Shown: positions 4,443 through 21,953 of the stretch, piece by piece
Numbering within the stretch: the first letter of the stretch is position 1
How the letters are laid out: each line of letters starts with the position of its first letter
Assembly: GCA_018814025.1 (NCBI GenBank)
Contig: JAHJAM010000006.1
Location: 1 to 34,361 of the forward strand
DNA from: Patescibacteria group bacterium
GTDB lineage: Bacteria > Patescibacteriota > Patescibacteriia > UBA9934 > GWF2-40-263
DNA length: 34,361 nt
Direction of reading: 5' to 3'
The notes under the pieces: generated by a model
What the model saw: the letters and a program-made list of their open reading frames with translations, nothing else
Told to the model about the DNA's origin: nothing
The model's database searches: none
Made by a program: the position numbers and the translations under genes

Positions 4443-6299
4443 ATGAAAAACGCCGTTATCACCACCATGCCTGAAGCCTACCGGCCGCATCGCCGATGGA
4501 AAAAGTTCCTGTTGTTGGGTTTGCTTTTGCCGATTATCGCCGGCGCGATTTTGTACCAAATGGGGGTGGGGGAGGTGCCGGATACGCATGCCTCGCGCAC
4601 TTATCTACAAACCGCCACGGATTGGGCCAAGATTGATAATTTTATCAGCGCCGAATTCCTGAAAACTCCGGAGCCGGGCAATTTGCTTGTGGCCGTGGTT
4701 TCCAATTCTCCGGCCGCGGAAATCCAAGCCCCCCAGGGATGGTCTGAAGCCGTTAATGAAAGCGAGTTCACGCCCGGCCAGGCTGTTTTCTATAAAATCG
4801 CGACTCAAAACGAAAGCCGCGTGGTAACCGTCAGCCACATTAGCCGCCGCGTGAATCTGGGCTTGCAGATCTTTGAATATCCGGATGTTGATTCAGCCAA
4901 TCCCATCGACGTCGTCGCTTCCGTCAACGGCCAAGGTCAGGTTTTGCATTCCGGCACTTTGAAAACCACCGCGGATAAGGACCTGCTGGTGGCCGCTTTT
5001 ACGGTCAGCCGCAAAGAGAATTTCGATCGGGTCTGGGATAATAATTTTTCGTTCCGCAATATCGGCCAAACCAAAGGCGACGGTCTAATTTCCTTCGCGG
5101 TCGGGGATTACATCACCGCTCAAGCCGGTTCTTTCGACACAGCCGTGGCTTTGGACAGTCCGGTCAAATGGCGCGGTCAAATCGTGGCTTTCCATCGCTT
5201 GGACCAGACCCTCCAGCAGGCGGTGGATATTGAGTCGGCTGACGTGGCCGTTGCCCTGAGCGTCAGCAATGAAAATCCCGAACCCGGCGAGGCGATTACT
5301 TACACTTTAGTGACTCGAAACAACGGCGCTCAAGATCTCAACAATGTCTTTGTGCAAAGCGCTTTGCCCAAAGGCGTGTCGCTTTATGAAGCCGGAATTT
5401 CTCAAGGCCGTTACGCCCCGGGCGTGGGTATGTGGGAAATCGGTGATTTGGCTCAAGGTCAAGCCGCCACTCTAAATTTGCACGCCTATGTTGATCAGCG
5501 CACCTACGGCACTTCGGTGATCGCCAGGGCGAGCTTATATATCATGGAACAGGTGGATTTCGATGAAACAAATAATGAAAGTTACGCGGTTATTGATATT
5601 CAAAAAGTCGTGGGCGCCAAGTACGAATGTCCGCCCATTGCCAATATCACCTTTGCCCTGGCACTTGGCCAAGCCACCACAGACGTGCGTTCGGTGGCCG
5701 TGCAAGCCAATGCCGCCGGCGCTACTTATCTGCTATTGAGCGAAAATCCCAATCGCCAGGCCGCGGCCTATTATCCTTTGTCAGCAAATTTGAATTTTGA
5801 ATTAAGTCCGCAGCCCGGACTCAAAACCGTTTACGCCTGGTTCATGAATGCCTGCGGGAGCAGCCCCGTGCAGCAAGCGCAAATCGAATATTCGCCTAAG
5901 CCCATAGTGATTGAGGAAGTTCCGGTCGAGGTTCCGGTCGCGGCCACAGTCGATGTCATTACTTTGCCGCCTGAAGCCGCCGCCTCTCCGGTAGTGCCAG
6001 CGGCCACCGATGATTCGGTCAGCGTCACGGTCACGGTTGAAGAACCGAGCCGCGCTTGCGGCCTTGTGTATCGCTTTTCATATTCCATGGTCCCTGAAGA
6101 CGCCAATTCGGAAGTTCGTCAACTCCAAGAAATTTTACAGTGCTTGGGTTATTTCCCGGCCGAGCAAGTTTCCACCGGCATCTTTGGCCCCATCACCGAG
6201 CAAGCGGTTAAGGATTTCCAAGCCGCTCATGGTATCGATTCTGTCGGTTATGTGGGCCCGTCGACCATTCAAGCTCTGAACCAATACACCCAACCATAA
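4443..6299 (+). CDS. Membrane-anchored or secreted surface protein with DUF11-like and C-terminal peptidoglycan-binding domains
   Basis: A 618-residue protein. The N-terminus is basic and is followed by one hydrophobic segment (residues ~22-40, LLLGLLLPIIAGAILYQM), which fits a signal anchor. Residues ~50-255 form a beta-rich domain with no clear family. Residues ~264-390 look like a DUF11 / conserved-repeat domain (VSNENPEPGEAITYTLVTRN, then a GDLAQGQAATLNL strand). A Val/Pro/Glu linker (~485-530) leads to a PG_binding_1 domain (~555-616; FGPITEQAVKDFQ). That last domain is nearly the same as the end of the preceding gene, including the Cys before LGYFP. The ATG lies 1 nt after the upstream stop with no Shine-Dalgarno, so translational coupling is likely. 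Inferred role: tethering surface structures to the cell wall. The function of the middle domain is unknown. Confidence 0.85.
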   Translation: MKNAVITTMPEAYRPHRRWKKFLLLGLLLPIIAGAILYQMGVGEVPDTHASRTYLQTATDWAKIDNFISAEFLKTPEPGNLLVAVVSNSPAAEIQAPQGWSEAVNESEFTPGQAVFYKIATQNESRVVTVSHISRRVNLGLQIFEYPDVDSANPIDVVASVNGQGQVLHSGTLKTTADKDLLVAAFTVSRKENFDRVWDNNFSFRNIGQTKGDGLISFAVGDYITAQAGSFDTAVALDSPVKWRGQIVAFHRLDQTLQQAVDIESADVAVALSVSNENPEPGEAITYTLVTRNNGAQDLNNVFVQSALPKGVSLYEAGISQGRYAPGVGMWEIGDLAQGQAATLNLHAYVDQRTYGTSVIARASLYIMEQVDFDETNNESYAVIDIQKVVGAKYECPPIANITFALALGQATTDVRSVAVQANAAGATYLLLSENPNRQAAAYYPLSANLNFELSPQPGLKTVYAWFMNACGSSPVQQAQIEYSPKPIVIEEVPVEVPVAATVDVITLPPEAAASPVVPAATDDSVSVTVTVEEPSRACGLVYRFSYSMVPEDANSEVRQLQEILQCLGYFPAEQVSTGIFGPITEQAVKDFQAAHGIDSVGYVGPSTIQALNQYTQP

Positions 6300-6522: not shown

Positions 6523-7143
6523 ATGTCCCTGTTTAAAAAACGCTTTGACACCCCCATGAATTCCTTCTGGCACCGCAAACTCGGTCCCACTGTCGGCGGC
6601 ATCATGGTGTTTGTTTTAGAAGTCGTGCAAATTGTTATCATCTCCGCGGCCATTATCATTCCTATCCGATATTTTTTGGTCCAGCCTTTCTACGTCAAAG
6701 GCGCTTCCATGGAACCGAATTTTTACGACCACGAGTATTTGATTATTGATGAGTTAAGCTATCGCTTCCGTCAGCCCGAACGGGGCGAGATCGTGGTTTT
6801 CCGCTATCCGCGGGATCCGCGCCAATTTTTCATCAAGCGCGTCATCGGCTTGCCCGGCGAAACCGTGGAAATCAATGACGGCAGCGTGGTCATTTTTAAT
6901 GATCTTTATCCCAACGGCACGGTCTTGCTCGAAGATTATCCCAACACCGATTACACCAACGGCAAAGTCAAAACCACGCTCGGCGCCGATGAGTTCTGGC
7001 TTATGGGCGATAACCGGGACGAAAGCATGGACTCGCGCAGCTTCGGTCCGGTCGGCAAAGACAGTTTAATCGGCCGGGTCTGGGTGCGCGGTTTGCCATT
7101 TTCCCGCGCCGGCACCTTCGATTTGCCGCCTTATAATTTCTAA
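6523..7143 (+). CDS. lepB: Signal peptidase I
   Basis: A 206-residue type I signal peptidase, the membrane serine protease that removes signal peptides from exported proteins. One membrane segment (about residues 25-52) precedes the catalytic region. The nucleophile is Ser62 in GASMEPNF, the general base is Lys105 in FFIKRVIGLPGE, and the box MGDNRDESMDSRSFGPV (~160-177) is the conserved C-terminal family motif. Length fits the short Gram-positive/CPR form with a single anchor. The ATG lies 25 nt after the tRNA and has no Shine-Dalgarno. The gene may be expressed from the tRNA promoter after tRNA processing. The hisS start lies 11 nt downstream, suggesting one operon. It is the obvious candidate to process the many LAQA-type signal peptides encoded in this window. 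Confidence 0.95.
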   Translation: MSLFKKRFDTPMNSFWHRKLGPTVGGIMVFVLEVVQIVIISAAIIIPIRYFLVQPFYVKGASMEPNFYDHEYLIIDELSYRFRQPERGEIVVFRYPRDPRQFFIKRVIGLPGETVEINDGSVVIFNDLYPNGTVLLEDYPNTDYTNGKVKTTLGADEFWLMGDNRDESMDSRSFGPVGKDSLIGRVWVRGLPFSRAGTFDLPPYNF

Positions 7144-8735: not shown

Positions 8736-8764
8736 TTGACATTTTTCCCTAACTTGTGCATAAT
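8736..8764 (+). promoter_or_regulatory. Promoter of rpsU
   Basis: A perfect -35 TTGACA (8736-8741), a 17-nt spacer and -10 CATAAT (8759-8764) lie 39-67 bases upstream of the rpsU GTG. The expected RNA start is about 8771. Confidence 0.75.
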
Positions 8765-8802: not shown

Positions 8803-9048
8803 GTGCCTGAAATCAAACGCCGCAAAGGAGAAAGCTTCGAAAGCCTCCTCCGCCGCTTTACCAGACGCGTCCAACAGAGTGGGAAAATGCTTCAATCGCG
8901 GAAAATCCGCTATCATTCGGCAGAACCCAACAAAAACGCTGTGCGAAACAGTGCTCTGCGACGCGACAAAATTCGTCAAAAACGCGAATATTTGATCAAA
9001 GTCGGCAAATTAATCGAAGATCAAGGACGACGCGGCAAACGTCGATAG
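8803..9048 (+). CDS. rpsU: 30S ribosomal protein bS21
   Basis: An 81-residue, strongly basic protein. The KRRKGESFESLLRRFTRRVQ start and the RRDKIRQKREYLIK region are typical of bS21, which sits on the small subunit near the mRNA exit and the anti-Shine-Dalgarno helix. The start is GTG at 8803, preceded by GAAAGGGGTG (8786-8795), one of the few plausible ribosome sites among the housekeeping genes here. The basic C-terminal extension beyond the Escherichia coli length is as seen in other CPR homologues. The gene is monocistronic, with its own promoter and a hairpin right after the stop. Confidence 0.92.
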   Translation: MPEIKRRKGESFESLLRRFTRRVQQSGKMLQSRKIRYHSAEPNKNAVRNSALRRDKIRQKREYLIKVGKLIEDQGRRGKRR

Positions 9049-9050
9049 AA

Positions 9051-9082
9051 AATTTCCGAGCCCTAAAAAGGGCTCGGAAATT
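9051..9082 (+). terminator. Hairpin after rpsU
   Basis: A perfect 14-bp stem (AATTTCCGAGCCCT / AGGGCTCGGAAATT) with an AAAA loop starts two bases after the stop codon. No U-run follows, so it may act as an mRNA 3' stabiliser or a weak terminator. Confidence 0.65.
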
Positions 9083-9138
9083 GGTAACTGGAGGCTAGGT
9101 CAAAAGAAACTCCTTACCCAGCCTCCAGTTACCAGTTA
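9083..9138. repeat. Intergenic hairpin with CCAGTTA repeats
   Basis: The arms at 9083-9100 and 9116-9133 are complementary at 17 of 18 positions around a 15-nt loop. The right arm runs into two tandem CCAGTTA units (9125-9138). A related CCAGTTA array with its own inverted repeat lies upstream of ftsA (25321-25381), so this looks like a dispersed REP-like element. Confidence 0.55.
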
Positions 9139-9164: not shown

Positions 9165-9905
9165 ATGTCTTTATTTGAACAAATCACAATTGACATGAAA
9201 GAGGCCATGAAGGCCAAAGAAAACGCTAAGTTATCAACTTTGCGTCTGTTAAAGTCTGCCTTGCAAAACAAAAAAATCGAGCTCTTGCATGAGCTTGATG
9301 AGTCAGAGGTTTTGGCCGTGATCAAATCTCAAATCAAGCAATTGAAAGATTCTTTAGATTCTTTTGAGCAAGCCGGCCGCCCTGAAATGGCTGAATCAAT
9401 CAAAAACGAAATTACCATGCTAAATGCCTATTTGCCGGCTGAGCTGGGCGATGAAGAACTGTTGAAAGTGGTTAAAGAAGCCGTGGCCGCTTCTGGCGCC
9501 GGTTCAGCCGCGGACATGGGTAAAGCCATGGGTGCGGCCATGAAAGCCGTGGCCGGCCAAGCTGATGGCAATCGCGTCAAAGCCCTGGTCCAATCTTTGC
9601 TTGCGGTTTTGGTTTTGGTCTTTGGGCTGATGTTTACTCCCGGCCTGGCTCAAGCCGCTTCGGCTAATTCTGAAGTCATTAACTTCGTCGTGCCGGCCAT
9701 CAAAATTACCCGGATGTTTCTGGTCTTGATTGGCATTGTCTGCATCAACTCAATTTTGATTGGCGGTTTTACCATGATGACCGCCAGCATGCGCAATGAC
9801 ATCCAGGGCATGGGCATGCAGAAAATGTCTTTTGGGATCGTGGGCACCTTGGTTGTGGCCAGTTTATTCTCCATTGCCACCGTGGCTCTTCAAAGACTAA
9901 CTTAA
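9165..9905 (+). CDS. YqeY (GatB/YqeY-domain) protein fused to a two-helix pilin-like membrane module
   Basis: A 246-residue protein. Residues 1-~145 are a complete YqeY domain, related to the tail domain of GatB: LFEQITIDMKEAMKAKE at the start, ITMLNAYLPAELGDEEL in the middle, and ADMGKAMGAAMKAVAGQADG before the usual end. YqeY proteins normally stop near here at about 148 residues. This frame instead continues through a signal-peptide-like segment (LLAVLVLVFGLMFTPGLAQA, ~144-163), a helix at ~175-203 and another at ~218-243. That is the layout of the pilin-like heads of the next two genes. No stop, ribosome site or convincing internal ATG separates the halves; only TTG/GTG codons could restart. 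It is either a real fusion or two genes joined by loss of a stop. The function of the fusion is unknown. A strong terminator follows. Confidence 0.8.
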   Translation: MSLFEQITIDMKEAMKAKENAKLSTLRLLKSALQNKKIELLHELDESEVLAVIKSQIKQLKDSLDSFEQAGRPEMAESIKNEITMLNAYLPAELGDEELLKVVKEAVAASGAGSAADMGKAMGAAMKAVAGQADGNRVKALVQSLLAVLVLVFGLMFTPGLAQAASANSEVINFVVPAIKITRMFLVLIGIVCINSILIGGFTMMTASMRNDIQGMGMQKMSFGIVGTLVVASLFSIATVALQRLT

Positions 9906-9944: not shown

Positions 9945-9973
9945 AAAAAACTCCCAGTTCCTGGGAGTTTTTT
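9945..9973 (+). terminator. Rho-independent terminator after the yqeY fusion
   Basis: The stem AAAAAACTCCCAG / CTGGGAGTTTTTT with a TTC loop ends in a T-run. It separates this transcript from the surface-protein operon that starts at about 10052. Confidence 0.9.
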
Positions 9974-10051: not shown

Positions 10052-11875
10052 ATGATGCAATTCAACCTCAAAAATATTTTTACACCTGAGAAACGGACGG
10101 CCGCTTTTGGCGTGCTCAGTCTTCTTGTTTTTATTGGGGTTTTATTCCTGGTTTTTCCGGCCTTGGCTCAGCAGGATGCCTTGGCTCAGCTGGGCGCTCA
10201 AAGCGGTTTGCCGCAAACCAGTTTGCCGATTTTGATTGCTCGGATTATTCGGGTCGTGCTGGGAGTGATTGGCATTGTGCTCGTGGTCTTAATCGTCTAC
10301 GGCGGTTTTCTGTGGATGACTTCGGCCGGCGAACCGGAAAAAGTTAGTAAAGCCAAAATGGTTTTGCAGAACGCGGTGATCGGTTTCGTTATCATCATGT
10401 CATCTTTTGGCATCACCCAGTTCATCTTAAGTCGCTTGCTTGAAGCCGCGGGTTTGGGCGGGGGAATCTCCTCGCGCGCCGAACAGTTTTACGAGCCGCT
10501 TTCCGGATCTTTAGGCGCCGGCATCATCCAAGATCACTTTCCCAACCGCAATGCCTTGGACATCGCCCGCAACACCAAAATCTTCGTGACCTTCAAAGAG
10601 CCGATTAATCCGGCTTCCATCATTGAAGGCTATGAATCTGATCCCGAGGCCACCAATTTAAATACGGCCAGCGTCAAAATTTACCCCACGGCCGACGGGG
10701 AAGAGGCGGCCCTGGGCCAGGCCGATGTTTTGCTGGCCGTGGATGAAACTTTTCAGACTTTCGTGTTTGATCCGATTCCATTTTTAGGCGACGGCCTCAA
10801 AGATGTGAATTACACGGTTTTCCTCACGCCCAACATTCAAAAAGCTGACGGTTCCTCGGCTTTCACCGGCCGCGAATCCGACGGCTATTCCTGGACTTTT
10901 GAAGTGGGCACGCAAATCGATCTCACGCCGCCTAAAGTTGTTTCCGTGATTCCGTCTGAAACCGGCGGCCCGTTCGCGCGCAACATTACGGTTTCCCTGA
11001 CTTTCAACGAAGCCATGGATCCCGTGGCTTCCACGGGCGAGTTTGACGGCGGTGGATTTACCAATATTTCCGTTTTAGCCGGCGGAACCGATGCGGTTCA
11101 CGGCACTTTTGCCATCAGCAACGGCTATCGCACCGTGGATTTCACTTCGGTTGACGCCTGTGGCCAAGATCCGTGCGGGGACACCATTTATTGTCTGCCC
11201 GGCCCGGCTCAGATTGAGGTTTTGGCCAAAGCCGCGGAATTGGGCGATGAACCGCCTCAAGCTCGGGCCATTGGTGTGAGCTATAACGGCTTGGTGGATG
11301 CGGCCGGCAATTCGCTGGACGGCGATGCCGACGGCGCGGCCCAAGGTCCGGACGCGGATAATTATGCTTGGAATTTTGACACCACCAACACGGTCAATTC
11401 CGAAGTCCCGCAAATTACCGGTCTTTTCCCAGCCATCAACGCCGGGGATGTGGATTTGGATCTGGATGTGGAAGTTACCTTCAGCCTTCCCATGAAAGCT
11501 TCCACCCTGAATTCGGAGAACGTCCGGCTGTACGCCGAGCCTTATCACTCGCTTTGGTTTAATCCCCGAACCGTCAATTTATCCGTGTCCGGCCAGGTGG
11601 CCGGTCTGGGCGAGGCCGTGGATCATTCCCAAGTGCGAATTGAACACCCGACTTTTGTCCCGCCTGATCTTGAACCCGCGCAAAGTTATTACCCGGTTAT
11701 CACCAATGGCGTTAAAAGCTCGTATCAGATTTGCCTGTATCCGGCCATGGATAATTTTTCCAATTGCGATTCGCGCAGCCACAACCCCAACTGCTGCAAT
11801 GGGCAAATCACCAGCCAGCCTTATTGCTGTTATGGCGTGCCCAGTCCGGACGCTTGCGATTATTTAATTGAATAG
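10052..11875 (+). CDS. Secreted, membrane-anchored protein: pilin-like two-helix head plus three Big_5 (SbsA Ig-like) domains
   Basis: A 607-residue protein. A signal peptide ends near residue 33 (LVFPALAQ). Two membrane helices follow (~57-90 and ~105-128), separated by the basic SAGEPEKVSKAK loop. This head is the module common in CPR and sometimes annotated as a pilin-like conjugal transfer protein (TrbC/VirB2-like). By the positive-inside rule the rest is outside. Three Big_5-type Ig domains are visible: ~166-285 (TKIFVTFKEPINPAS), ~290-430 (SLTFNEAMDP) and ~452-565 (VEVTFSLPMKAS). A Cys-rich tail with CC pairs ends the protein. GGGGG (10046-10050) lies just before ATGATG (10052/10055); either ATG could be used. 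It is the first gene of a long operon, and the next ATG is 1 nt past its stop. It looks like a shorter companion of the giant protein. Confidence 0.88.
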   Translation: MMQFNLKNIFTPEKRTAAFGVLSLLVFIGVLFLVFPALAQQDALAQLGAQSGLPQTSLPILIARIIRVVLGVIGIVLVVLIVYGGFLWMTSAGEPEKVSKAKMVLQNAVIGFVIIMSSFGITQFILSRLLEAAGLGGGISSRAEQFYEPLSGSLGAGIIQDHFPNRNALDIARNTKIFVTFKEPINPASIIEGYESDPEATNLNTASVKIYPTADGEEAALGQADVLLAVDETFQTFVFDPIPFLGDGLKDVNYTVFLTPNIQKADGSSAFTGRESDGYSWTFEVGTQIDLTPPKVVSVIPSETGGPFARNITVSLTFNEAMDPVASTGEFDGGGFTNISVLAGGTDAVHGTFAISNGYRTVDFTSVDACGQDPCGDTIYCLPGPAQIEVLAKAAELGDEPPQARAIGVSYNGLVDAAGNSLDGDADGAAQGPDADNYAWNFDTTNTVNSEVPQITGLFPAINAGDVDLDLDVEVTFSLPMKASTLNSENVRLYAEPYHSLWFNPRTVNLSVSGQVAGLGEAVDHSQVRIEHPTFVPPDLEPAQSYYPVITNGVKSSYQICLYPAMDNFSNCDSRSHNPNCCNGQITSQPYCCYGVPSPDACDYLIE

Positions 11876-11876
11876 C

Positions 11877-14800
11877 ATGTCCCGTTCCAAACTTACATTT
11901 TTATCCGGTTTTATCTTCACGCTTTTGATCGGCGCCGGACTTTTGTTTGCGGTGCCGGCTTTGGCCCAAGCCGTTGATTTAAACGCTTTCGGCCAAGCCG
12001 CGGGTTTTTCCACTGATTTGGACATTCGCGTCATGATTGCCCGCTTAATTCGCACGGCCATTTCTTTCGCCGGCATTATCTTGGTAATCATGATCATCTA
12101 CGGCGGTTTCATGTGGATGACTTCGGCCGGGGCGCCTGACCGGATCGACAAAGCCAAAAAGATCTTAACCAACGCGGCCATTGGCCTGGTGATCGTCATT
12201 GCTTCTTTTGCCATCACCAGTTTCATCCTCGGCGCCTTAACCGACGCCGTGGGCGGGGGAGTGATCGGCGAAGATGACGAACCCGGTTTTTATCCCGGCC
12301 CGGGCGGTACCACCAGCGCTCTGGTTTTAACATCGGTCAATACCCAATGCGCTTCCGCTTTAAAAAACTTGCAGTTGCAGATGATTTTTTCCAAAACTAT
12401 TCAAGAAGCCACGGTTCTAGACGGCGGCATTCGGGTGAAGGTCGCGGGCGGTCCGGATGTGCCCGGCACTTTCACGGTTAACTCGCGCAAAGTCACTTTC
12501 ACTCCGACCCAAATTTGTCCGGAAGATCCCAATGAATATTGTTTTAACCCGGCCACTGATTATCGCATCACTCTGGATCCGGCCATTTTGAAAAGCGGCA
12601 GCGGCACGGCTTTGACCTGCAACACGGTTAATCCCTGCAGTTTCGATTTCACCACCGGCCAAGGTGTTGATTTGTCCGGTCCATCCGTCGAGGTTGACGC
12701 TCCGGAATCCGGCCAGTCTTTAATGGTTAATAACCTTGAATTACTTCAGTCTTTGGCTCAAGACGATACCGGCGTTTCTTCCGTGGAATTTACGGTTGAT
12801 GGGGAGCTGATTTTTGATGCGGGTTTGGATAACAGTTCATCCGGCGCTTTAACCCCGGATAATTATTTTCATACCGACGACACCCAGTGGAACACCGCCG
12901 GCTATGTCACCAACCGCAGTTACAATATCCGCGCCCGCGGCTTTGACTGCTCCGGGCGTTCCGACACGGCTGCCATCAACGCGGTTTTGCGCACGGAAAG
13001 CTGCTTTAACGGAATTCAAGATGTTGATTTGGGCGAAGCCGGAATTGATTGCGGCGGTTCTTCGGTCACGGAATATTACTGCGGCGCTTGCGTGGGCGAT
13101 CAATGCGCGGCGAACGAGGATTGTTCCTCCGGCGTTTGCGAAAATGGTTTCTGTGTCGGTTCCACCATCATTGAGCGGGTCAACCCGGGCGACGGCGCCG
13201 TGGGCAACCTAATCACCGTTGCCGGCCGCGGCTTTGGCGCCGAACCCGGCAGTATCGTGTTTTTGGGCGCGGACGGAGTCGGCGATGACTTTGTGGTTTC
13301 CGCTCCTTACGAATGTTCCGGCGCCGACACTTGGACTGACACGCAGATCATTATCCAAGTCCAAGAAGGCATGATCGATGGCCCGATCAAAATTATCACC
13401 GCGGCCTTGGACGAAGATTTGACCAATGATTTAGCCGGACCCTACCTTCCGGATTTTGTGGTGAATGACATCGTTCGTCCGGGCTTATGCAAGCTTGAAC
13501 CGGATATTTCGCCGGCCAATCAAGAAATCCGCTGGCTGGGTAATAATTTTGGCGCCGCGCGCGGTTCCTCAACTGCTTTCTATGGCAATTATTCCGCGGC
13601 CTCTTACGCCAATGATTGGTCTGAAACCGAATTCGGCGCCGTGGCCCCGCTGGTTAATGCCGGCCGGTACCGCACTCAAGTTTTCGTGGGCGATAATTTA
13701 TGTTCCGTGGCCGGCACTCGATGCAACGGCCAAGCCGACTGCCCGGTGGGTGAAGCCTGTGTGATCGGCCGCCAAGGCTCCAATCAAATCAACTTCCAAG
13801 TTTTAGCCGAGGACAGCGTGGCCGTTCCGGTCATTACCTTGGTTGATTCCGGCTGGAAATCTTGTACGGCCGGCGACCGCATTAATCAGCGCTGTGTCGA
13901 TGATGACGGCTGTCCCGGCGGCGGCGCCGGTTCCTGCTTGGAAACCGGCAATTGGGGTCCGGCCAATCAGTATCTTTCCATTTTTGGCTCGAATTTTGGC
14001 AATTCCCTGGGCACGGTTCGCTTCGTGAACAATCTCGGCGCCAGCGCCAACAATGGCATTGAGGCGCTGGGCAGCGATGATTTTCCCGCTGTCTGCGAGA
14101 ATATCGTTTATTGGCGTGACAATGTCATTACCGTCAAAGTGCCGTCGAAATATTTAAATGATGCGCCTTTGGAACCCGGCAGCCATTCGCTTTACGTTAA
14201 ACGCCAAGCAGGCACGGTTTCCAATCAAGTCGAGTTTTATGTGGTTGATGACCAGCCCGGGCCCGCCATTTGCGCCTTAGTGCCCAGTGCCGGTCCCACC
14301 GGCTCCGAGGTTGATGTTTTAGGTGAAAATTTCGGCAACAATAACGCCCGGGTTTGGTTTGCACCCAATCAGTCCGCGCCCGGCGTGCAAACCAATCAAA
14401 CTTACGCCACTCAAGTGCCGGCCGGCGCCCAAACCGGCAATGTCTTTTTAGCCAATGAAGCCGGCTACGGTTCCAACAAAATGCCTTTTACGGTCGGGGA
14501 TTGCCGGGATGAAAACATCTGCGCGCCCGGAGAAAAATGCTGTGCCAACGGTACCTGCCAAGTGACTTGTCCGATCACTGATGTTGATTCCAACTATTCT
14601 TACCAATTTTTCACCGGCCCCGTGCCCGTGGCCCCGGAAGTGGTGCAGATTTGCGATGCCACCGGCTTAGGCTTGGTTTCACCCACGCCTTGGTCAGGGC
14701 ATACTCGCTCGCAAGACATTTGCCGCAACGCCGCGATTTCAGCCAGTTTCCGGGTTGGTTCCGATTTAACTCCGATCATGGATGATCTGGCTTTTGCCCG

Positions 14801-17800
14801 CAACACCTTAGTGGAAAAATGTCTGAATGCGGCTTGCACTGATCGAGAAATCGTGGCCGGTAGCGTGATTGATACCTGGGCCAGCGGTTTCACTTGGCTG
14901 CCGGCCGATCCAGATGGTCTTGAGATCAACACTCACTATTTTGTCACCCTCAACGGTTATTTGCCCGAAGAAGACATCACGGCCATCAAACTGTTAAACG
15001 GGGAGTATCTGCAGGATGATTTTGTTTGGGAATTTACCACCGCCAATTCCGACGTGCCTTGCAGTGTGGGTGATTTAATGGTTTCCCCCGGACAATTTAC
15101 GGCCCGAACGCAGGATGAGCAGGTCAAATATCTGGCCCAGCCTTTGGCCGCGGGCAATGGGGGACAATGTCTTTTGTTAAGCTGTCGAGAATACCAAGAC
15201 CAGTATGTCTGGAATTCCAGCAACTCGGCCCTGGCCCCATTGTTGCCGCAAACCCAAACCGCCTGCGGCATCAGCGCTGAGGCTCGGGAGGAAACTCAAG
15301 TCGGCGATTCGATCACTATCAGTTCTTCAATTGCCGATCCCGCGGTTTCAGGTGAAGGGGAATTGGAAATTCATTTCACGGATCCGGCCATCGTCAGTTA
15401 TTGGCCCAATTGCGAATCCGCTTGTGTAAATGCGGAAATCGGCGCTCGCTTCAATGTTGATATGAGCGACTTTTCCTTCAGCTTGTTGGCCTGCGCCACT
15501 GAGGCTTGTATCAACACTGAGCTAATCTATAATTACACTCTGGCTTTTAACCACGATACTTTCACCCTGCAGCTTTGGCCGGATGATCCCCTGCAAATCA
15601 ATAAATATTACAAAGTCATTTTCTATCCGAGTACCGCCTCCACCAGCGGCCGCCAATTGCGCGCCGTCTACGGGGACGCGGGCTTTAGCTGGCTGTTTCA
15701 CACCAAAAATGATCCCGCTTTCTGCGGCGTGGACCGAGTCAGCGTTGAACCCGCGCAATCTAAAATGCGCTTTATCGGCCAAAAGCAATCCTTGATGGCC
15801 GTGCCTTACGGCGCCCCGGATAATTGTTCAGCCAACGGCCAAATTTTGAATGCCGCGGATTACACTTGGCGGGCTTGGACCGCCGCTGACGCGCCCAACT
15901 ACACGGCCGCCAATCCGCCGGTCGTGGCCGCTTTGCTCGGCAATGGCCTGATCCCTTTGAGTTCGGAATTGGCGCCCGGCTGTTCCAGCGACTGTTTGCA
16001 TACCGGCTCAGCCATCCAAATCGGCACCGCGGTTTGCGGGGATCGATTGGTTGATCTTGAAGTTGAAGATTGCGACGACGGCAACACTTTAAATGGCGAC
16101 GGCTGTTCCGCCAATTGTTTAACCGAAGGCACTGATGCGCCAACTTGCGGCAATAATGATCTGCAAACCGGCGAAGAATGCGATGACGGCAATGTCCTTG
16201 ACGGCGACGGCTGTTCCGCCCGCTGTTTGCGCGAAGGCGCGGCCGCGGCCGGTTATACTTGCGGCAATCGGGATATCGCATTTCGTTCCGCCTCCCAAGG
16301 CGTCATCGGCGAGGAATGCGATGACGGCAATACTCGCAACGGCGACGGCTGTTCCAGCCAGTGTCTGCATGAAGGCTCGATTCCGCAAACCGCGGTTTAC
16401 GCCACCTGCGGCAATAACCTTGTTGAAAGCGGAGAAGATTGCGACGACGGCAACCTAATCAATCGCGACGGTTGTTCGGATCGCTGTTTGGCCGAAGGCA
16501 CTCAAGCCTGCGTTTATCAATGCAATAATGTCGTGAAGAATTGCACTTCCGATGTTCAGTGTGATGACGGGGATCCGGCCACGGCTGATTCCTGCGACCT
16601 CAAGAACGCGCCTTGTTGCGGCAATGGCGGTGCGCCCGAAACCGGGGAGTCTTGCGACGATGGCAATGTCTTGAGCGGTGACGGTTGTTCCAATCAATGT
16701 TTGCGCGAAGGTTCATCGGTTAATTTCACCCCGGCCAGCATTTGCGGCGACAATGTTTTAGTGCGGCCAAGCGAAGCATGCGAAGCCGTGGGCAGTTTGG
16801 TCTCTGGTCCTTACGCCGTGGTTCAAATGGATGAAGGCGCGGTGGAAGAATTATTAGCCGCGCCCGCTGATGTTTATGTTGTTAAATCCAATATCTCCGC
16901 CACGGTTGAGAATTCGCCTTCGTCTCCGGTTTCCGGCACGGCCAATGTTTCTTTGGCCTGCGTCTGTCAAACCGATGCCCAATGCGGGGACAGCGCCAAT
17001 TACGGCTGCGGCACCCGCGGCTGCTGTTTTGAGCGTCCCATGATTTCCACTATGTATCCCAGCGACGGCCAGGTTAATGTCTGCCGCAATACCGCCCTCT
17101 GGTTTGAATTTGATCAAGCCATGGATCCGGCCTCAATCCAAGAGGGTCGAAATTTTTTCCTCAAACTCGTAAATCTCAACGGCTCGGACCTGGATCAAAC
17201 CGCTTGCGAAGCCGCGGGTTATACTTATGTAGCTTCGGCCGATCATCAGCCTTGGCTGGTCCGCGCTTGGCATTGGGTCAAGGATTTTGTCACCGGTTTC
17301 TTTGGTCGTGACGCGGCCGCGGCCCTTTATCAAGGCTGTATCGTGCCTAATGTTTCCTACAGTTCAGAAATCGTCGGCGCCGGCTCGCGCTTGCGCATTA
17401 ATTTAAATGAATTATTGAATCAAGATGCCGCTTATCAAATTGTGGCCCTGGACGATCCCAACAAAGCGGACGGCTTAGCCGAGGGGCTGGTGAATAAATT
17501 TGCCGTGGGCTTGAAAGCCGGCTCCCTCGCCACTTTCCGAGTCGGGGATGAGATTTGCTCCTTGGATGAAGTCAGAGTGGAAGATCTGGGCAAAACTCCG
17601 TTTGACCGGCTTAATCCCAGCTACACTTTGTTTACCAAGACCGCCGAAGTTCACCGCCTGCAAGGCGCGGGTTTCTCTTTCCGCAATGGCGTTGCTCAAG
17701 AAATTCAACCCATCGACACCGTTTACGATTGGACCTGGTCCTGGAATTCCACTTTTGTTGATGATCCCGCTGATTGCCCGGCTGATGATCCGGCTACGCC

Positions 17801-20800
17801 CAGCCTCAATGAAAATGCCAACTGCTTGGCCAGTGCGGATCAAAACGCCGTCAATATTTCCAATCCCACGGCTCCGGATAATAATCCCACTCAAGCCGAT
17901 GTCACGGCCCAAAATCAAGATGGGCGAGAAAGCGCCTACGCCATCGCCACCATTACCACCAACCAGCATTGCGCCGGCGGTTTCAACGCGGGCCAAGTTT
18001 GTACTGATGATGCCGGCTGTCCGGGTGGCGCTTGCGTGCCGGAAAAAATTGATGGCAGCTTGCCGCTGACAGTTTTGCTTTGCTCCAACCCTTGGCCGGA
18101 TGCGAATTTCCCATTCGTCCAAAGTTCAAATAATTCAGGCAACGGCCGCGGTCCCACCAATTTCGGTTTTTACTATTGCCGCGATGCCGGCGATCCCAAC
18201 ACCCCGGACGATGATTTGCCGGCCATGGCCATTCAAGAAGTGGCCGCGCCGGCCGTGGGCGATATTTACCGCGAATTCCTGTTTATTTTGGAGGGCACCG
18301 GCGATGCCTTGGGCGTGCGGGTCATGAATGATCCCAATTATTTGCCTCCGGACATGTGGTTTCAGCAAATGGGCTTTCGCGGTTCGCCGCGCGAGGCTGA
18401 ATTGGACGGCTATCAAGCCGTGCGCGATGGCAACACCATTTACGCTTTAGCCGCCAACCAAACCGGCGACATCTTCCCGAACATTTATGTAATTTCTACG
18501 ACCGATGACCCCAGTCCCGAAGCCGAAAACATTTTCGATCAGATTTTGAACCATTGGACTTTTAACGCCAATACCGGCGCGGTTTCCGATCACAATCTTT
18601 GCGTTGACAGCTCGCATAATTTCCTGACTGATCCGGACACGGGCAATTTCTTAGGCTGTCAGTGGGACGGGGATTGTCCGGCGCCCGGCATTTGTGATGC
18701 GGACAAAGCCAAGCTGGCTCGCGACCTTAGGCGCTTGTCTGATTTGGTGCGCATCAAATCCTATATCACCGGTACTTGTTCCGGCGCCTTCCAGTCCTGC
18801 TCCGGGGATGAGGATTGCTCCGGCGGCCAAACTTGTGAAAATCTTTCCGTACCGCCCTTGGCCGAAGGCAGTTTTATCCGCGCCCTGTCCACCAGCCGCT
18901 GGCCGTCTTGGAATTCGGTTTTGGGCAACGCGCTCGGTCAGGCCTTGCCTCAAGACCCGCTCAACCTTTTCAGTTCTTGTGAAGGCGAGGCTTATGATCC
19001 GGAAACCTGCTTTGACTCCAGCGAAGGCCAATTTATTTGCGCCCAAGGTTCGCATATTTACGGTTTCAACTCTTCCTCTGAAGGCGCCTACACCCTGACC
19101 GCGCAGCTTGAGCATCAAGCCGCGCCCTGGGCCTATCCCATCGATCCGGTGCTTGATGATAATGCGAAAATTGTGGCCGAGTATGAAAATTATCAAGGCT
19201 CAGCTAGCCTCGGCAACACGCCGGCTCAGGTTGATGCCATGGTTGCGGCTTTCGTGGACTTTGACGCGGCCGAATGGCGATTCTACGGCAACCTTAACGG
19301 AGCTTATCAAAACTTGCCCAATAGCACGGCTTGGAATCTGGCTTTTGACTTAGACGATAATATATATTTCAATAATCTTGAGATATATAATCTTCTCAGC
19401 CAGTCGGTTCCTTATGATTTAGGCGCTCTCAATAGCCTGATTAGCGACAGTTTCAGTAAAATTACTCAATTAGAAGCCATTTATCCGACCGTGCCGGCCG
19501 CCCTGGCCGAAGTGCGGAGCCTGCGCAGTCTTCTGTCCGTCTTCCAAGCCAGTTTAGTGGATGGCGTCACTGGCAGCGGTTCCAGCGGCTCTTCACTGAC
19601 CGGCGGTTTCCAAAATCCCGCGCTGTTCTGCAGCGGTCTGATTGTCGGTGATTCATCAGTTTGCGGCGACGGTATTAAAGCCCCGAATGAAATGTGTGAA
19701 ATCGGCGAAGTTGATTTGCTTGATTGTCCGGGCGGCCAAAAGAACGTGAATTGCATCAATGACGGCGGTGTTTGCCGTTTCCAAAGAATTGATGAAGCGC
19801 CCGGCGCTTGCCAAGTTTTCGGCTGCGGCAATGGCGTCAAAGAAGGTGCGGAAGAGTGCGATGACGGAATTTTCAACGGTTCTTATGGTTATTGCAGCCG
19901 CGACTGCACCACCACGCCTGATTTCTATTGTGGCGACGGTTACTTAGCCGGCGGCGAGCAATGCGACTGCGGTACGGTTCAAAATTATAGCAGCCTGCCC
20001 GGCAGCAGCTGGGCCAAGAGCGCCAGCCACTGTTCCAAAGCCAATGGCCAGTATGTTTCCGATTTCAATCAATCCTGTGCCTTTAACTGCACTAAGCCCG
20101 GGCCGTCTTGCGGCGACGGCTTGATTAATGGCAGTGAGGTTTGCGACCCGGGCAACCAGGATTCGAATTATCAACAAGAATCCTGCGGCACTTTTGACTC
20201 TCAGGGCCGCGAAAGATTTAAGTCTCGTTCTTGTACCGGCAGTTGCGGCTGGGGAACTTGGAGCGTTTGCGCTCCGCTTTCCTCCTGCGGCGACGGCGTG
20301 AAAAACGGCACCGAACAATGCGACGACGGGAACACCAACGACAACGACGCCTGCACCAATGCCTGCCAACTTAACGTTTGCGGCGACGGGTACATCAACG
20401 CCGGCCTTGAGTCTTGCGATTTGGGTCCGCAAAACGGCAGCCAGTGCGCGGCCGCTTATGACAGCATCTGCTACTACTGCAATGTCTCCTGCCAATACCA
20501 ATCCCGCACCGGCGATTTTTGCGGCGACGGCCGAATCAACGGTTCAGAATTCTGCGATGGGAATCAAATCCAGCCCCGCGCTTTCGACGCCACCACTCGA
20601 GAAGCCAGTTCGGTTTGTGCCGCCACCGAGGTCAACACTGTGGTAATCGGTAATCCGCGTGTGGATCCGCCCGCTGATGTCTATTCTTGCCGCTATGTGG
20701 GCATCTGCAACGGCGGCGACCACAATGGCGAACCCTGCACTTTGGATTTTGCTGGCAGCGTCTATACGCCCAACGCCGGCGGTTCCGATGGCGTGGGCTG

Positions 20801-21953
20801 CCAAGGCGAACGCTTTAACGGCGTGTGCGTGGCCCCCAAGTGCGCCAGCAATTGCCAATTTGCCTGCCCCTTCGAAACTCAAAAGGCTTCAATCTTGGTT
20901 CAATCCGGCGCCCCCGGCGCCACGCCCCAAGAGTCCATTAGCCTCTATCCTTTCTTAAATTCAGCCAACAATATTCCGGATCGCGCCCAGCTGTTCTTGC
21001 CGGCTTGCCGGGCCAGCGTGGCCATCACCGCGGACATTGATAAGTCCGATGTCCAGCCCCCGAGCGTGGATGTAGTCTTTGTGACGGATCTTTCCGGCTC
21101 CATGGGCGGTGGCAATGTCTGGCGCATTAATGCCGTTAAAGAAGCAACCACTAATGCCATTGATGAAATGATTAATAGCTATCAATACTTTACTTCTGAT
21201 TTGCGCATTGCTTTGATCAGTTATAGCGGCTATTTCGGCGCCCGCATCGATAGTGGTTTTTCGGAAGATCAAACGGCGCTAAAAACAATCGTCGATGGGT
21301 ATATCACCGGCGGTGCCACCCCAACTCCAACCGCGCTCCAGGCCGGCATTGATCTTTTGGCCACCTCCGAAGCCGATGAAAAAATTCTCGTCTTATTAAG
21401 CGATGGGGAACCGTCAGACTCTCCTCAAGGGAAGTTCGATACTGTTGTTTTGGCAAAAAATGCAAACGGAGATCCGATTCATTCCGATATTAAGATTTTC
21501 ACCGCCGCCCTAACCACCACTCAAAGTCTGTTTGGATTCATGAAGCATGTTTCAAATGATCAATGCAAATCAGAAAATTTTCCCGCTCGCATTATTCAAA
21601 CTCTGGCGGATACGAATGGCACGACAATTTATTTCACCAGTCTCGACAAGCCCGGTGATTGCGAACCGGACGGGGCGACCGAATATGGCTTCCAGGCCAC
21701 TGATGCAGCGGGGGTGAATCTGATGTATGAGGCCATTACTAATACGGTCCTGGGCGTGTCCTTCGCTTTTGTCACTGACGGTCCGACCATCACCGCCGGT
21801 CAAGCGCGGGAAGGGAATGACGCCATCTTGCCGTTCCCGGAAAACTTCGCTTGTCGGCCCACGGCCCAAACCGTGCCCATCCGATTAAATTACTCCGGCA
21901 CCGGACAAGCGCATCTCACCGATTTCAAGTTTGAATATTGCCCAATCGAATAG
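11877..21953 (+). CDS. Giant surface protein (3358 aa): pilin-like head, IPT/TIG and Big_5 domains, DUF4215 Cys-rich repeats, von Willebrand A domain
   Basis: ATG at 11877 is preferred over the in-frame TTG at 11868, which lies inside the upstream gene. A signal peptide ends at residue ~31 (FAVPALAQA). Two membrane helices (~50-121) surround the loop SAGAPDRIDKAK, like the upstream protein. Outside come a Big_5-like domain (~145-265), an Ig-like domain, a Cys-rich knot (~375-428), four IPT/TIG-like domains (~428-870), two more Big_5-like units (~915-1275), and five DUF4215 (Myxococcus Cys-rich) repeats with CDDGN...GDGCS motifs (~1385-1615). A long unclassified region with short Cys clusters follows, then a second set of seven looser CGDG...C units (~2592-2895). 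Last is a vWA domain (~3063-3260) with MIDAS elements DLSGS, TPTPT and LLSDGEP. The role in adhesion or sensing is inferred. The very high Cys content implies oxidative folding outside the cell. The next ATG is 4 nt past the stop. Confidence 0.9.
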   Translation: MSRSKLTFLSGFIFTLLIGAGLLFAVPALAQAVDLNAFGQAAGFSTDLDIRVMIARLIRTAISFAGIILVIMIIYGGFMWMTSAGAPDRIDKAKKILTNAAIGLVIVIASFAITSFILGALTDAVGGGVIGEDDEPGFYPGPGGTTSALVLTSVNTQCASALKNLQLQMIFSKTIQEATVLDGGIRVKVAGGPDVPGTFTVNSRKVTFTPTQICPEDPNEYCFNPATDYRITLDPAILKSGSGTALTCNTVNPCSFDFTTGQGVDLSGPSVEVDAPESGQSLMVNNLELLQSLAQDDTGVSSVEFTVDGELIFDAGLDNSSSGALTPDNYFHTDDTQWNTAGYVTNRSYNIRARGFDCSGRSDTAAINAVLRTESCFNGIQDVDLGEAGIDCGGSSVTEYYCGACVGDQCAANEDCSSGVCENGFCVGSTIIERVNPGDGAVGNLITVAGRGFGAEPGSIVFLGADGVGDDFVVSAPYECSGADTWTDTQIIIQVQEGMIDGPIKIITAALDEDLTNDLAGPYLPDFVVNDIVRPGLCKLEPDISPANQEIRWLGNNFGAARGSSTAFYGNYSAASYANDWSETEFGAVAPLVNAGRYRTQVFVGDNLCSVAGTRCNGQADCPVGEACVIGRQGSNQINFQVLAEDSVAVPVITLVDSGWKSCTAGDRINQRCVDDDGCPGGGAGSCLETGNWGPANQYLSIFGSNFGNSLGTVRFVNNLGASANNGIEALGSDDFPAVCENIVYWRDNVITVKVPSKYLNDAPLEPGSHSLYVKRQAGTVSNQVEFYVVDDQPGPAICALVPSAGPTGSEVDVLGENFGNNNARVWFAPNQSAPGVQTNQTYATQVPAGAQTGNVFLANEAGYGSNKMPFTVGDCRDENICAPGEKCCANGTCQVTCPITDVDSNYSYQFFTGPVPVAPEVVQICDATGLGLVSPTPWSGHTRSQDICRNAAISASFRVGSDLTPIMDDLAFARNTLVEKCLNAACTDREIVAGSVIDTWASGFTWLPADPDGLEINTHYFVTLNGYLPEEDITAIKLLNGEYLQDDFVWEFTTANSDVPCSVGDLMVSPGQFTARTQDEQVKYLAQPLAAGNGGQCLLLSCREYQDQYVWNSSNSALAPLLPQTQTACGISAEAREETQVGDSITISSSIADPAVSGEGELEIHFTDPAIVSYWPNCESACVNAEIGARFNVDMSDFSFSLLACATEACINTELIYNYTLAFNHDTFTLQLWPDDPLQINKYYKVIFYPSTASTSGRQLRAVYGDAGFSWLFHTKNDPAFCGVDRVSVEPAQSKMRFIGQKQSLMAVPYGAPDNCSANGQILNAADYTWRAWTAADAPNYTAANPPVVAALLGNGLIPLSSELAPGCSSDCLHTGSAIQIGTAVCGDRLVDLEVEDCDDGNTLNGDGCSANCLTEGTDAPTCGNNDLQTGEECDDGNVLDGDGCSARCLREGAAAAGYTCGNRDIAFRSASQGVIGEECDDGNTRNGDGCSSQCLHEGSIPQTAVYATCGNNLVESGEDCDDGNLINRDGCSDRCLAEGTQACVYQCNNVVKNCTSDVQCDDGDPATADSCDLKNAPCCGNGGAPETGESCDDGNVLSGDGCSNQCLREGSSVNFTPASICGDNVLVRPSEACEAVGSLVSGPYAVVQMDEGAVEELLAAPADVYVVKSNISATVENSPSSPVSGTANVSLACVCQTDAQCGDSANYGCGTRGCCFERPMISTMYPSDGQVNVCRNTALWFEFDQAMDPASIQEGRNFFLKLVNLNGSDLDQTACEAAGYTYVASADHQPWLVRAWHWVKDFVTGFFGRDAAAALYQGCIVPNVSYSSEIVGAGSRLRINLNELLNQDAAYQIVALDDPNKADGLAEGLVNKFAVGLKAGSLATFRVGDEICSLDEVRVEDLGKTPFDRLNPSYTLFTKTAEVHRLQGAGFSFRNGVAQEIQPIDTVYDWTWSWNSTFVDDPADCPADDPATPSLNENANCLASADQNAVNISNPTAPDNNPTQADVTAQNQDGRESAYAIATITTNQHCAGGFNAGQVCTDDAGCPGGACVPEKIDGSLPLTVLLCSNPWPDANFPFVQSSNNSGNGRGPTNFGFYYCRDAGDPNTPDDDLPAMAIQEVAAPAVGDIYREFLFILEGTGDALGVRVMNDPNYLPPDMWFQQMGFRGSPREAELDGYQAVRDGNTIYALAANQTGDIFPNIYVISTTDDPSPEAENIFDQILNHWTFNANTGAVSDHNLCVDSSHNFLTDPDTGNFLGCQWDGDCPAPGICDADKAKLARDLRRLSDLVRIKSYITGTCSGAFQSCSGDEDCSGGQTCENLSVPPLAEGSFIRALSTSRWPSWNSVLGNALGQALPQDPLNLFSSCEGEAYDPETCFDSSEGQFICAQGSHIYGFNSSSEGAYTLTAQLEHQAAPWAYPIDPVLDDNAKIVAEYENYQGSASLGNTPAQVDAMVAAFVDFDAAEWRFYGNLNGAYQNLPNSTAWNLAFDLDDNIYFNNLEIYNLLSQSVPYDLGALNSLISDSFSKITQLEAIYPTVPAALAEVRSLRSLLSVFQASLVDGVTGSGSSGSSLTGGFQNPALFCSGLIVGDSSVCGDGIKAPNEMCEIGEVDLLDCPGGQKNVNCINDGGVCRFQRIDEAPGACQVFGCGNGVKEGAEECDDGIFNGSYGYCSRDCTTTPDFYCGDGYLAGGEQCDCGTVQNYSSLPGSSWAKSASHCSKANGQYVSDFNQSCAFNCTKPGPSCGDGLINGSEVCDPGNQDSNYQQESCGTFDSQGRERFKSRSCTGSCGWGTWSVCAPLSSCGDGVKNGTEQCDDGNTNDNDACTNACQLNVCGDGYINAGLESCDLGPQNGSQCAAAYDSICYYCNVSCQYQSRTGDFCGDGRINGSEFCDGNQIQPRAFDATTREASSVCAATEVNTVVIGNPRVDPPADVYSCRYVGICNGGDHNGEPCTLDFAGSVYTPNAGGSDGVGCQGERFNGVCVAPKCASNCQFACPFETQKASILVQSGAPGATPQESISLYPFLNSANNIPDRAQLFLPACRASVAITADIDKSDVQPPSVDVVFVTDLSGSMGGGNVWRINAVKEATTNAIDEMINSYQYFTSDLRIALISYSGYFGARIDSGFSEDQTALKTIVDGYITGGATPTPTALQAGIDLLATSEADEKILVLLSDGEPSDSPQGKFDTVVLAKNANGDPIHSDIKIFTAALTTTQSLFGFMKHVSNDQCKSENFPARIIQTLADTNGTTIYFTSLDKPGDCEPDGATEYGFQATDAAGVNLMYEAITNTVLGVSFAFVTDGPTITAGQAREGNDAILPFPENFACRPTAQTVPIRLNYSGTGQAHLTDFKFEYCPIE

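Follow-up and report, generated by a model that had tools for sequence, protein, structure and literature searches.

The window, the whole stretch of 34,361 nucleotides that was analysed, carries a gene (P0001) in which a YqeY domain continues in frame into a signal-peptide-like segment and a pilin-like module of two membrane helices. The open reading frame starts with ATG and runs for 246 codons with no internal stop. Upstream lie an rpsU-like gene and, 2 kb away, lepB, whose product is a candidate for cleaving the fusion protein; downstream follow two genes for surface proteins with T4SS_pilin-like heads (Table 1).

Table 1. Features around the yqeY-pilin-like fusion gene, in window coordinates.
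Feature	Position	Strand	Evidence
lepB, signal peptidase I gene	6523..7143	+	PF10502 2.4e-42 (strong Peptidase_S26 match)
rpsU-like gene (bS21), upstream neighbour	8803..9048	+	PF01165 4.2e-5, just under cut-off
yqeY-pilin-like fusion gene P0001, 246 aa	9165..9905	+	open frame; 30 full-length in-frame loci including the window copy
YqeY domain, residues 1-146	9165..9602	+	PF09424 E 4e-45; phmmer 1ng6 1.3e-30; Foldseek 1ng6/8xje E 6e-10 to 1e-7
Signal-peptide-like segment, residues 145-164 (h-region ~145-158, c-region TPGLAQA), predicted signal peptidase I cut after Ala164	9597..9656	+	-3/-1 motif 30/30
Pilin-like two-helix membrane module, residues 165-246 (helices ~169-209, ~217-245)	9657..9902	+	hhalign to T4SS_pilin heads E 5e-13; weak PF18895 matches
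Bidirectional terminator-like hairpin, AAAAAACTCCCAG-TTC-CTGGGAGTTTTTT	9945..9973	.	perfect 13-bp inverted repeat, A6/T6 ends
607-aa surface protein, T4SS_pilin-like head paralogous to the module	10052..11875	+	PF18895 3e-9, Big_5 1.1e-15
3361-aa surface protein, T4SS_pilin-like head	11868..21953	+	PF18895 6.2e-7

The order rpsU-like gene, fusion gene, pilin-headed surface genes is the usual one in the family to which the window belongs, and the S21-like frame is found upstream in most fused loci. In the window the S21-like protein is possibly a lineage-specific bS21: it has 81 aa and a GTG start, is longer than the Pfam and NCBIfam models, falls just below both cut-offs and ends in a basic C-terminal tail. 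A good sigma-70-like site precedes the gene at 8736-8764. Two inverted repeats lie between it and the fusion gene, a perfect one of 14 bp at 9051-9082 (AATTTCCGAGCCCT/AGGGCTCGGAAATT) and one of 22 nt with 91% complementarity at 9079-9137 (AATTGGTAACTGGAGGCTAGGT / ACCCAGCCTCCAGTTACCAGTT); their role may be to terminate the rpsU transcript or to regulate it. Further upstream, a 618-aa protein encoded at 4443-6299, with a DUF11 domain and a C-terminal peptidoglycan-binding domain (PF01471), adjoins lepB. By eye, the 3361-aa surface protein has many repeated cysteine-rich motifs of the CGDG...CDDGN type, and its C-terminal part resembles a von Willebrand A domain (DVVFVTDLSGSMGG).

The first-pass annotation, made from the DNA letters, had placed the fusion gene next to a surface operon. 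The pilin-headed genes do adjoin it, but a shared operon is doubtful, because the inverted repeat with its A6/T6 ends intervenes and the fusion gene and the surface genes are thus probably separate transcription units. Judged from this hairpin, which a consensus scan did not list, the fusion transcript probably ends before the surface genes.

The YqeY half is complete, since a Pfam search matched profile positions 2-143 of 143 in PF09424 to residues 5-146, at 153.9 bits against a cut-off of 27; this bears out the earlier view that the domain is whole and would normally end near residue 145-148. The B. subtilis YqeY structure 1ng6 was also matched by sequence, and the top Foldseek matches of a predicted model (1ng6, 8xjg and 8xje; TM 0.74-0.90 by target length) show the all-helical YqeY fold. 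Beyond YqeY the frame runs unbroken into LLAVLVLVFGLMFTPGLAQA, continues with ASANS after the predicted cut and then encodes two hydrophobic helices, which is the extension into a signal peptide and two membrane helices that had been read from the letters. At the junction, the window copy has QSLLAVLVLVFGLMFTPGLAQA before the predicted cut and ASANSEVINFVVP after it. In the model the last YqeY helix and the hydrophobic segment form one helix (135-157), followed by a low-confidence break (~158-166) and the helices 169-209 and 217-245; because the alignment behind it is shallow (8 rows; mean pLDDT 71, pTM 0.44), we take the model as supporting evidence only. Each searched genome contains one YqeY gene at most, and exactly one wherever the locus was found. 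Automatic annotation would probably label such genes GatB/YqeY domain proteins, as expected from the Pfam match, and so hide the membrane half.

The module is related to the T4SS_pilin domains. Pfam and NCBIfam searches with the window module alone gave no significant match, and its score against T4SS_pilin (PF18895) is 11.8 bits, below the curated cut-off of 26.6; we therefore call it T4SS-pilin-like and not a PF18895 member. Seven of 12 related modules tested match PF18895 weakly (best E 4.7e-6). A profile of 30 modules, however, aligned to a profile of the downstream T4SS_pilin heads at 97.9% in hhalign (E 5e-13, 76 columns), and this match with the heads of adjacent proteins establishes homology to accepted T4SS_pilin domains. 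What had been noticed as the same plan at the head of the next two genes is thus common descent. A T4SS neighbourhood for the fusion gene was considered and rejected, because the virB4-like gene is not near it but on another contig (C31), which also encodes two further T4SS_pilin proteins.

Across 27 modules the N-terminal tail carries 4 K/R and 41 D/E, and the loop between the two helices 66 K/R, 69 D/E and 39 His. This charge pattern points to a module with its N-terminus out, its loop in and its C-terminus out, and so do the homologous heads, since the large Ig-like portions of these have to lie outside. As YqeY is expected inside and the N-tail of the module outside, the fused protein requires one extra membrane crossing, which the segment between the halves would supply.

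When the 246-aa protein was used as query in whole-genome searches, the junction recurred, always in frame, in 15 of the 19 genera sampled from the family, with 30 full-length copies, counting that of the window, and one more cut by a contig end. The other full-length copies are 44-55% identical to the window copy, measure 242-256 aa overall and read through the junction without a stop. From five genomes of the family no locus could be used, in one case because the match runs off its contig. The family consists of Uhrbacteria-like Patescibacteria, a placement based on the label Candidatus Uhrbacteria of L001, a relative from genus g3 with separate genes. Outside the family no fusion appeared among 381 genomes sampled from the class at E<=1e-32 or among 96 relatives at E<=1e-3, limits that a very divergent fusion could escape. 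Phage records gave partial YqeY matches only, none covering 80% of the query, and a phage origin was rejected. That an assembly or sequencing error had removed a stop or a base at the junction, an alternative raised by the first-pass annotation, can be dismissed with near certainty: nothing was found in its favour, and genomes of 15 genera share the join, at 30 full-length loci. The proposal of a true fusion is strongly supported by this recurrence, by purifying selection along one continuous frame and by the phylogeny described below.

In four other genera yqeY ends at its natural length (~147-150 aa) and a separate small gene for a two-helix protein stands directly behind it. The two genes overlap by one base (ATGA) in g2 and g10, are 5-11 nt apart in g3 and in one g7 genome, and 116 nt apart in the other g7 genome. 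The small protein and the fused module form one family (hhalign 99.5%, E 2.5e-22). In g2 and g3 the small protein has no signal-like segment and starts about where the mature module would, and in g10 and one g7 genome it has a signal-like N-terminus of its own. Loci examined from further families of the order and class showed no small two-helix gene behind yqeY. At seven fetched loci outside the family a large pilin-headed surface protein is encoded within ~225 nt after yqeY, and elsewhere nothing comparable lies nearby. These loci (L044, L045, L048, L049, L050, L053 and L055), with a T4SS_pilin-headed protein directly behind yqeY, belong to several families of the class, and the neighbourhood of yqeY and surface genes is therefore older than the fusion.

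Separate genes in relatives had been named as a result that would speak against a fusion. They do occur, but on the tree they represent the ancestral state and one reversal, and the fusion stands. An RpoB tree (47 genomes, ~1,090 columns) requires three changes, from no small gene to split, from split to fused, and from fused to re-split in g2. The small membrane gene would accordingly have arisen at the base of the family, and three genera still have it split; a single fusion to yqeY probably took place in the ancestor of a large clade. Genus g2 is nested within the fused clade, beside the fused g9 and near the genus of the window; the family, its split and fused clades and the pairing of g9 with g2 all sit on starred branches (96-97% SH-aLRT). 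AU tests rejected a single clade of all split genomes (p-AU 0.003) and, more weakly, a single clade of all fused genomes without g2 (p-AU 0.036). In g2 yqeY stops where YqeY naturally ends, its stop codon sharing ATGA with the start of the next gene, and the part missing is the signal-like segment. We call g2 re-split on the strength of its tree position and the AU tests, and consider independent fusions less likely. Historically, the earlier suggestion that a pilin-like gene had lost its own start is correct, as three sister genera keep the separate gene directly behind yqeY.

Such a history raises the question of whether being joined serves any function, or whether co-directional neighbours simply lost the intervening stop and the join was tolerated. 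With genes that overlap or sit 5-11 nt apart in sister genera, fusion takes just one indel or stop loss, and the re-splitting of g2 also fits a join of no consequence. Against this, the in-frame join has outlived high synonymous divergence across 15 genera with one loss, and we regard a neutral fusion as improbable.

The segment between the halves has the features of a signal peptidase I substrate: a positive charge followed by an h-region and by small residues at -3 and -1. The motif [AVT]-x-A precedes the predicted cut in all 30 homologues (-1 always Ala; -3 Ala in 24, Val in 5 and Thr in 1), the residue after it is Ala in 23 of the 30, and the cut lies 22-26 residues past the conserved DG-x-R-V-K of YqeY in every one. 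The positive charge is provided by R/K at the end of YqeY, residues 137 and 139 in the window protein. From the last K/R to the predicted cut there are 17-26 residues (mean 23) in the fusion homologues, a range that overlaps the 20-30 (mean 24) in the signal peptides of the downstream surface proteins. In the window protein the module is predicted to start with ASANSEVINFVVPAIK, and the stretch spanning the cut is GLAQAASANSEVINF. The apolar run varies among homologues, from 11 to 21 residues. Between close genome pairs, dN/dS was 0.05-0.18 for YqeY, 0.08-0.26 for the module (pN/pS where saturated) and 0.07-0.96 for the signal segment, the protein sequence of which evolves faster than both flanks in six of eight close pairs. 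Cleaved signals typically combine a loose sequence with a fixed -3/-1 motif, and signal peptides evolve fast. To judge by these sequences, the linker reads as a cleavable signal peptide and cleavage is predicted.

Alternatively, the hydrophobic segment could stay in place as a third transmembrane helix, and the pilin-like module would then keep YqeY permanently on the inner side of the membrane. A factor related to the ribosome or to tRNA would thus be positioned close to the translocon or to a secretion machine. This topology is feasible without cleavage (N-in, three crossings, C-out), the apolar run reaches 21 residues and the model helix 135-157 is continuous; YqeY being present in one copy only, its job would then be membrane-based. 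An uncut anchor accounts less well for an [AVT]xA motif in 30 of 30 copies, often after helix-breaking residues, and for the loose constraint on the segment, both traits of a cut signal, or for g2, which dropped the link and kept both parts. We consider it unlikely, if still credible.

The membrane part could also be made mainly from an ATG inside yqeY, at residue 122 or 126, as a normal secreted small protein to which the fused frame is incidental. An ATG is present at residue 122 in 30 of 30 copies and ATG or GTG at 126 in 27 of 30, a product beginning at 126 would have a plausible n-region (MKAVAGQADGNRVKALVQ), and the SD-like energy near both codons is slightly stronger than background. 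Met122 and Met126, however, are ordinary YqeY residues that occur also in split copies and in B. subtilis YqeY; the SD-like signal cannot decide the matter, because the real yqeY starts of the family have no SD; and variation at four-fold sites over codons 97-156 (0.68-0.71) is as high as elsewhere, whereas it dips to 0.50-0.60 in codons 1-36, at the true start. Start codons at the junction itself are not conserved, with at most 14 of 30 in any column over residues 127-159. The internal TTG or GTG start around 9573-9620 proposed by the first-pass annotation finds no support in this lack of conservation or in the unreduced synonymous variation, and we regard internal initiation altogether as very unlikely.

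What we observe is the fusion itself, its conservation and history, the homology of both parts and the conserved -3/-1 motif. The reading we lean towards, at somewhat better than even confidence, is a single precursor that signal peptidase I probably cuts in two, into a tailed YqeY, anchored in the membrane, and a pilin-like membrane peptide. One mRNA frame would give one precursor, the YqeY domain of which would fold in the cytoplasm, while its last helix would pass directly into a Sec signal-peptide-like helix crossing the membrane with its N-terminus inside. The module would insert behind it, with its N-tail outside, the TM1-TM2 loop inside and the C-terminus outside, and signal peptidase I would most likely cut after [AVT]-x-Ala. 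The products would arise in equal amounts: YqeY with its C-terminal membrane-anchoring tail, and a VirB2/T4SS-pilin-like membrane peptide of ~82 residues. Genuine membrane anchors can also precede small residues, the apolar run of some copies is long enough for an uncut anchor, and the tail left on YqeY would have to be tolerated or degraded; these points weigh against a cut precursor. A tether of YqeY to the membrane had been suggested before. This covers only part of the picture: given a linker that looks like a cleavable signal peptide, what anchors YqeY may be a tail left by the cut in place of an intact multi-pass membrane protein. The benefit of a cut precursor might be fixed-ratio production or the membrane placement of YqeY. 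More doubtfully, YqeY, as a factor associated with the ribosome or tRNA, would serve as the cytosolic head of the signal peptide in a two-in-one precursor, so that insertion of the module and the amount or location of the sole YqeY are locked together; if this were true, it would be a new link between translation and assembly of the surface apparatus in Patescibacteria.

YqeY is widespread and, to our knowledge, still without an assigned function. That a lineage has its sole YqeY attached to a membrane module, and that split, fused and re-split forms all exist in nature, is a concrete clue that YqeY can work at the membrane; the three forms also provide clean, ready-made constructs for studying how internal signal peptides are processed and what YqeY does. 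In H. halodurans, yqeY can be deleted without loss of viability (PMC11445130). In Patescibacteria the fusion links the locus of rpsU and yqeY with the pilin-headed surface proteins encoded beside it. One further lead, and no more than that, is a preliminary report of YqeY binding to OLE RNA, which forms a complex that contains bS21 (PMC12054373). In a literature search of mostly non-subscription papers we found no published YqeY-pilin-like fusion and no mention of YqeY together with the Candidate Phyla Radiation; YqeY fusions to GlnRS and T4SS pilins are already known (PMC3927822, PMC12102498), and the YqeY-pilin-like fusion appears unreported.

Compared with known YqeY proteins (PF09424; 1NG6 from B. 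subtilis, 8XJE from C. jejuni, 8XJG from V. parahaemolyticus), the window protein has the same complete domain by sequence and predicted fold. Those copies are free soluble proteins of ~148 aa, whereas the window YqeY continues into a membrane module, so that the stand-alone soluble state, usual though not defining for YqeY, is departed from in 15 of the 19 family genera. The GlnRS-YqeY fusions of Deinococcus and others likewise carry a fused YqeY-like domain (PMC3927822), so the domain tolerates fusion; there, however, YqeY is a C-terminal add-on of a soluble tRNA synthetase, and in the window it is N-terminal to a membrane module. VirB2/T4SS_pilin-like pilins (PF18895) are common in Patescibacteria (PMC12102498), and these and the Mbov_0395 family (NF045849) share with the window protein the signal peptide, the two helices and the short charged loop. 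The window copy differs from the VirB2/T4SS_pilin-like proteins in that it falls below the Pfam cut-off, lies behind yqeY and not near a virB4-like gene, and has a cytosolic domain in front. We know of no complex that contains both YqeY and a pilin-like module. In FbcH, the cytochrome b-c1 polyprotein of Bradyrhizobium, two proteins arise from a common precursor that is divided at a signal sequence within it; the processing proposed for the window protein resembles this plan, although FbcH, unlike YqeY with its module, joins two subunits of one complex.
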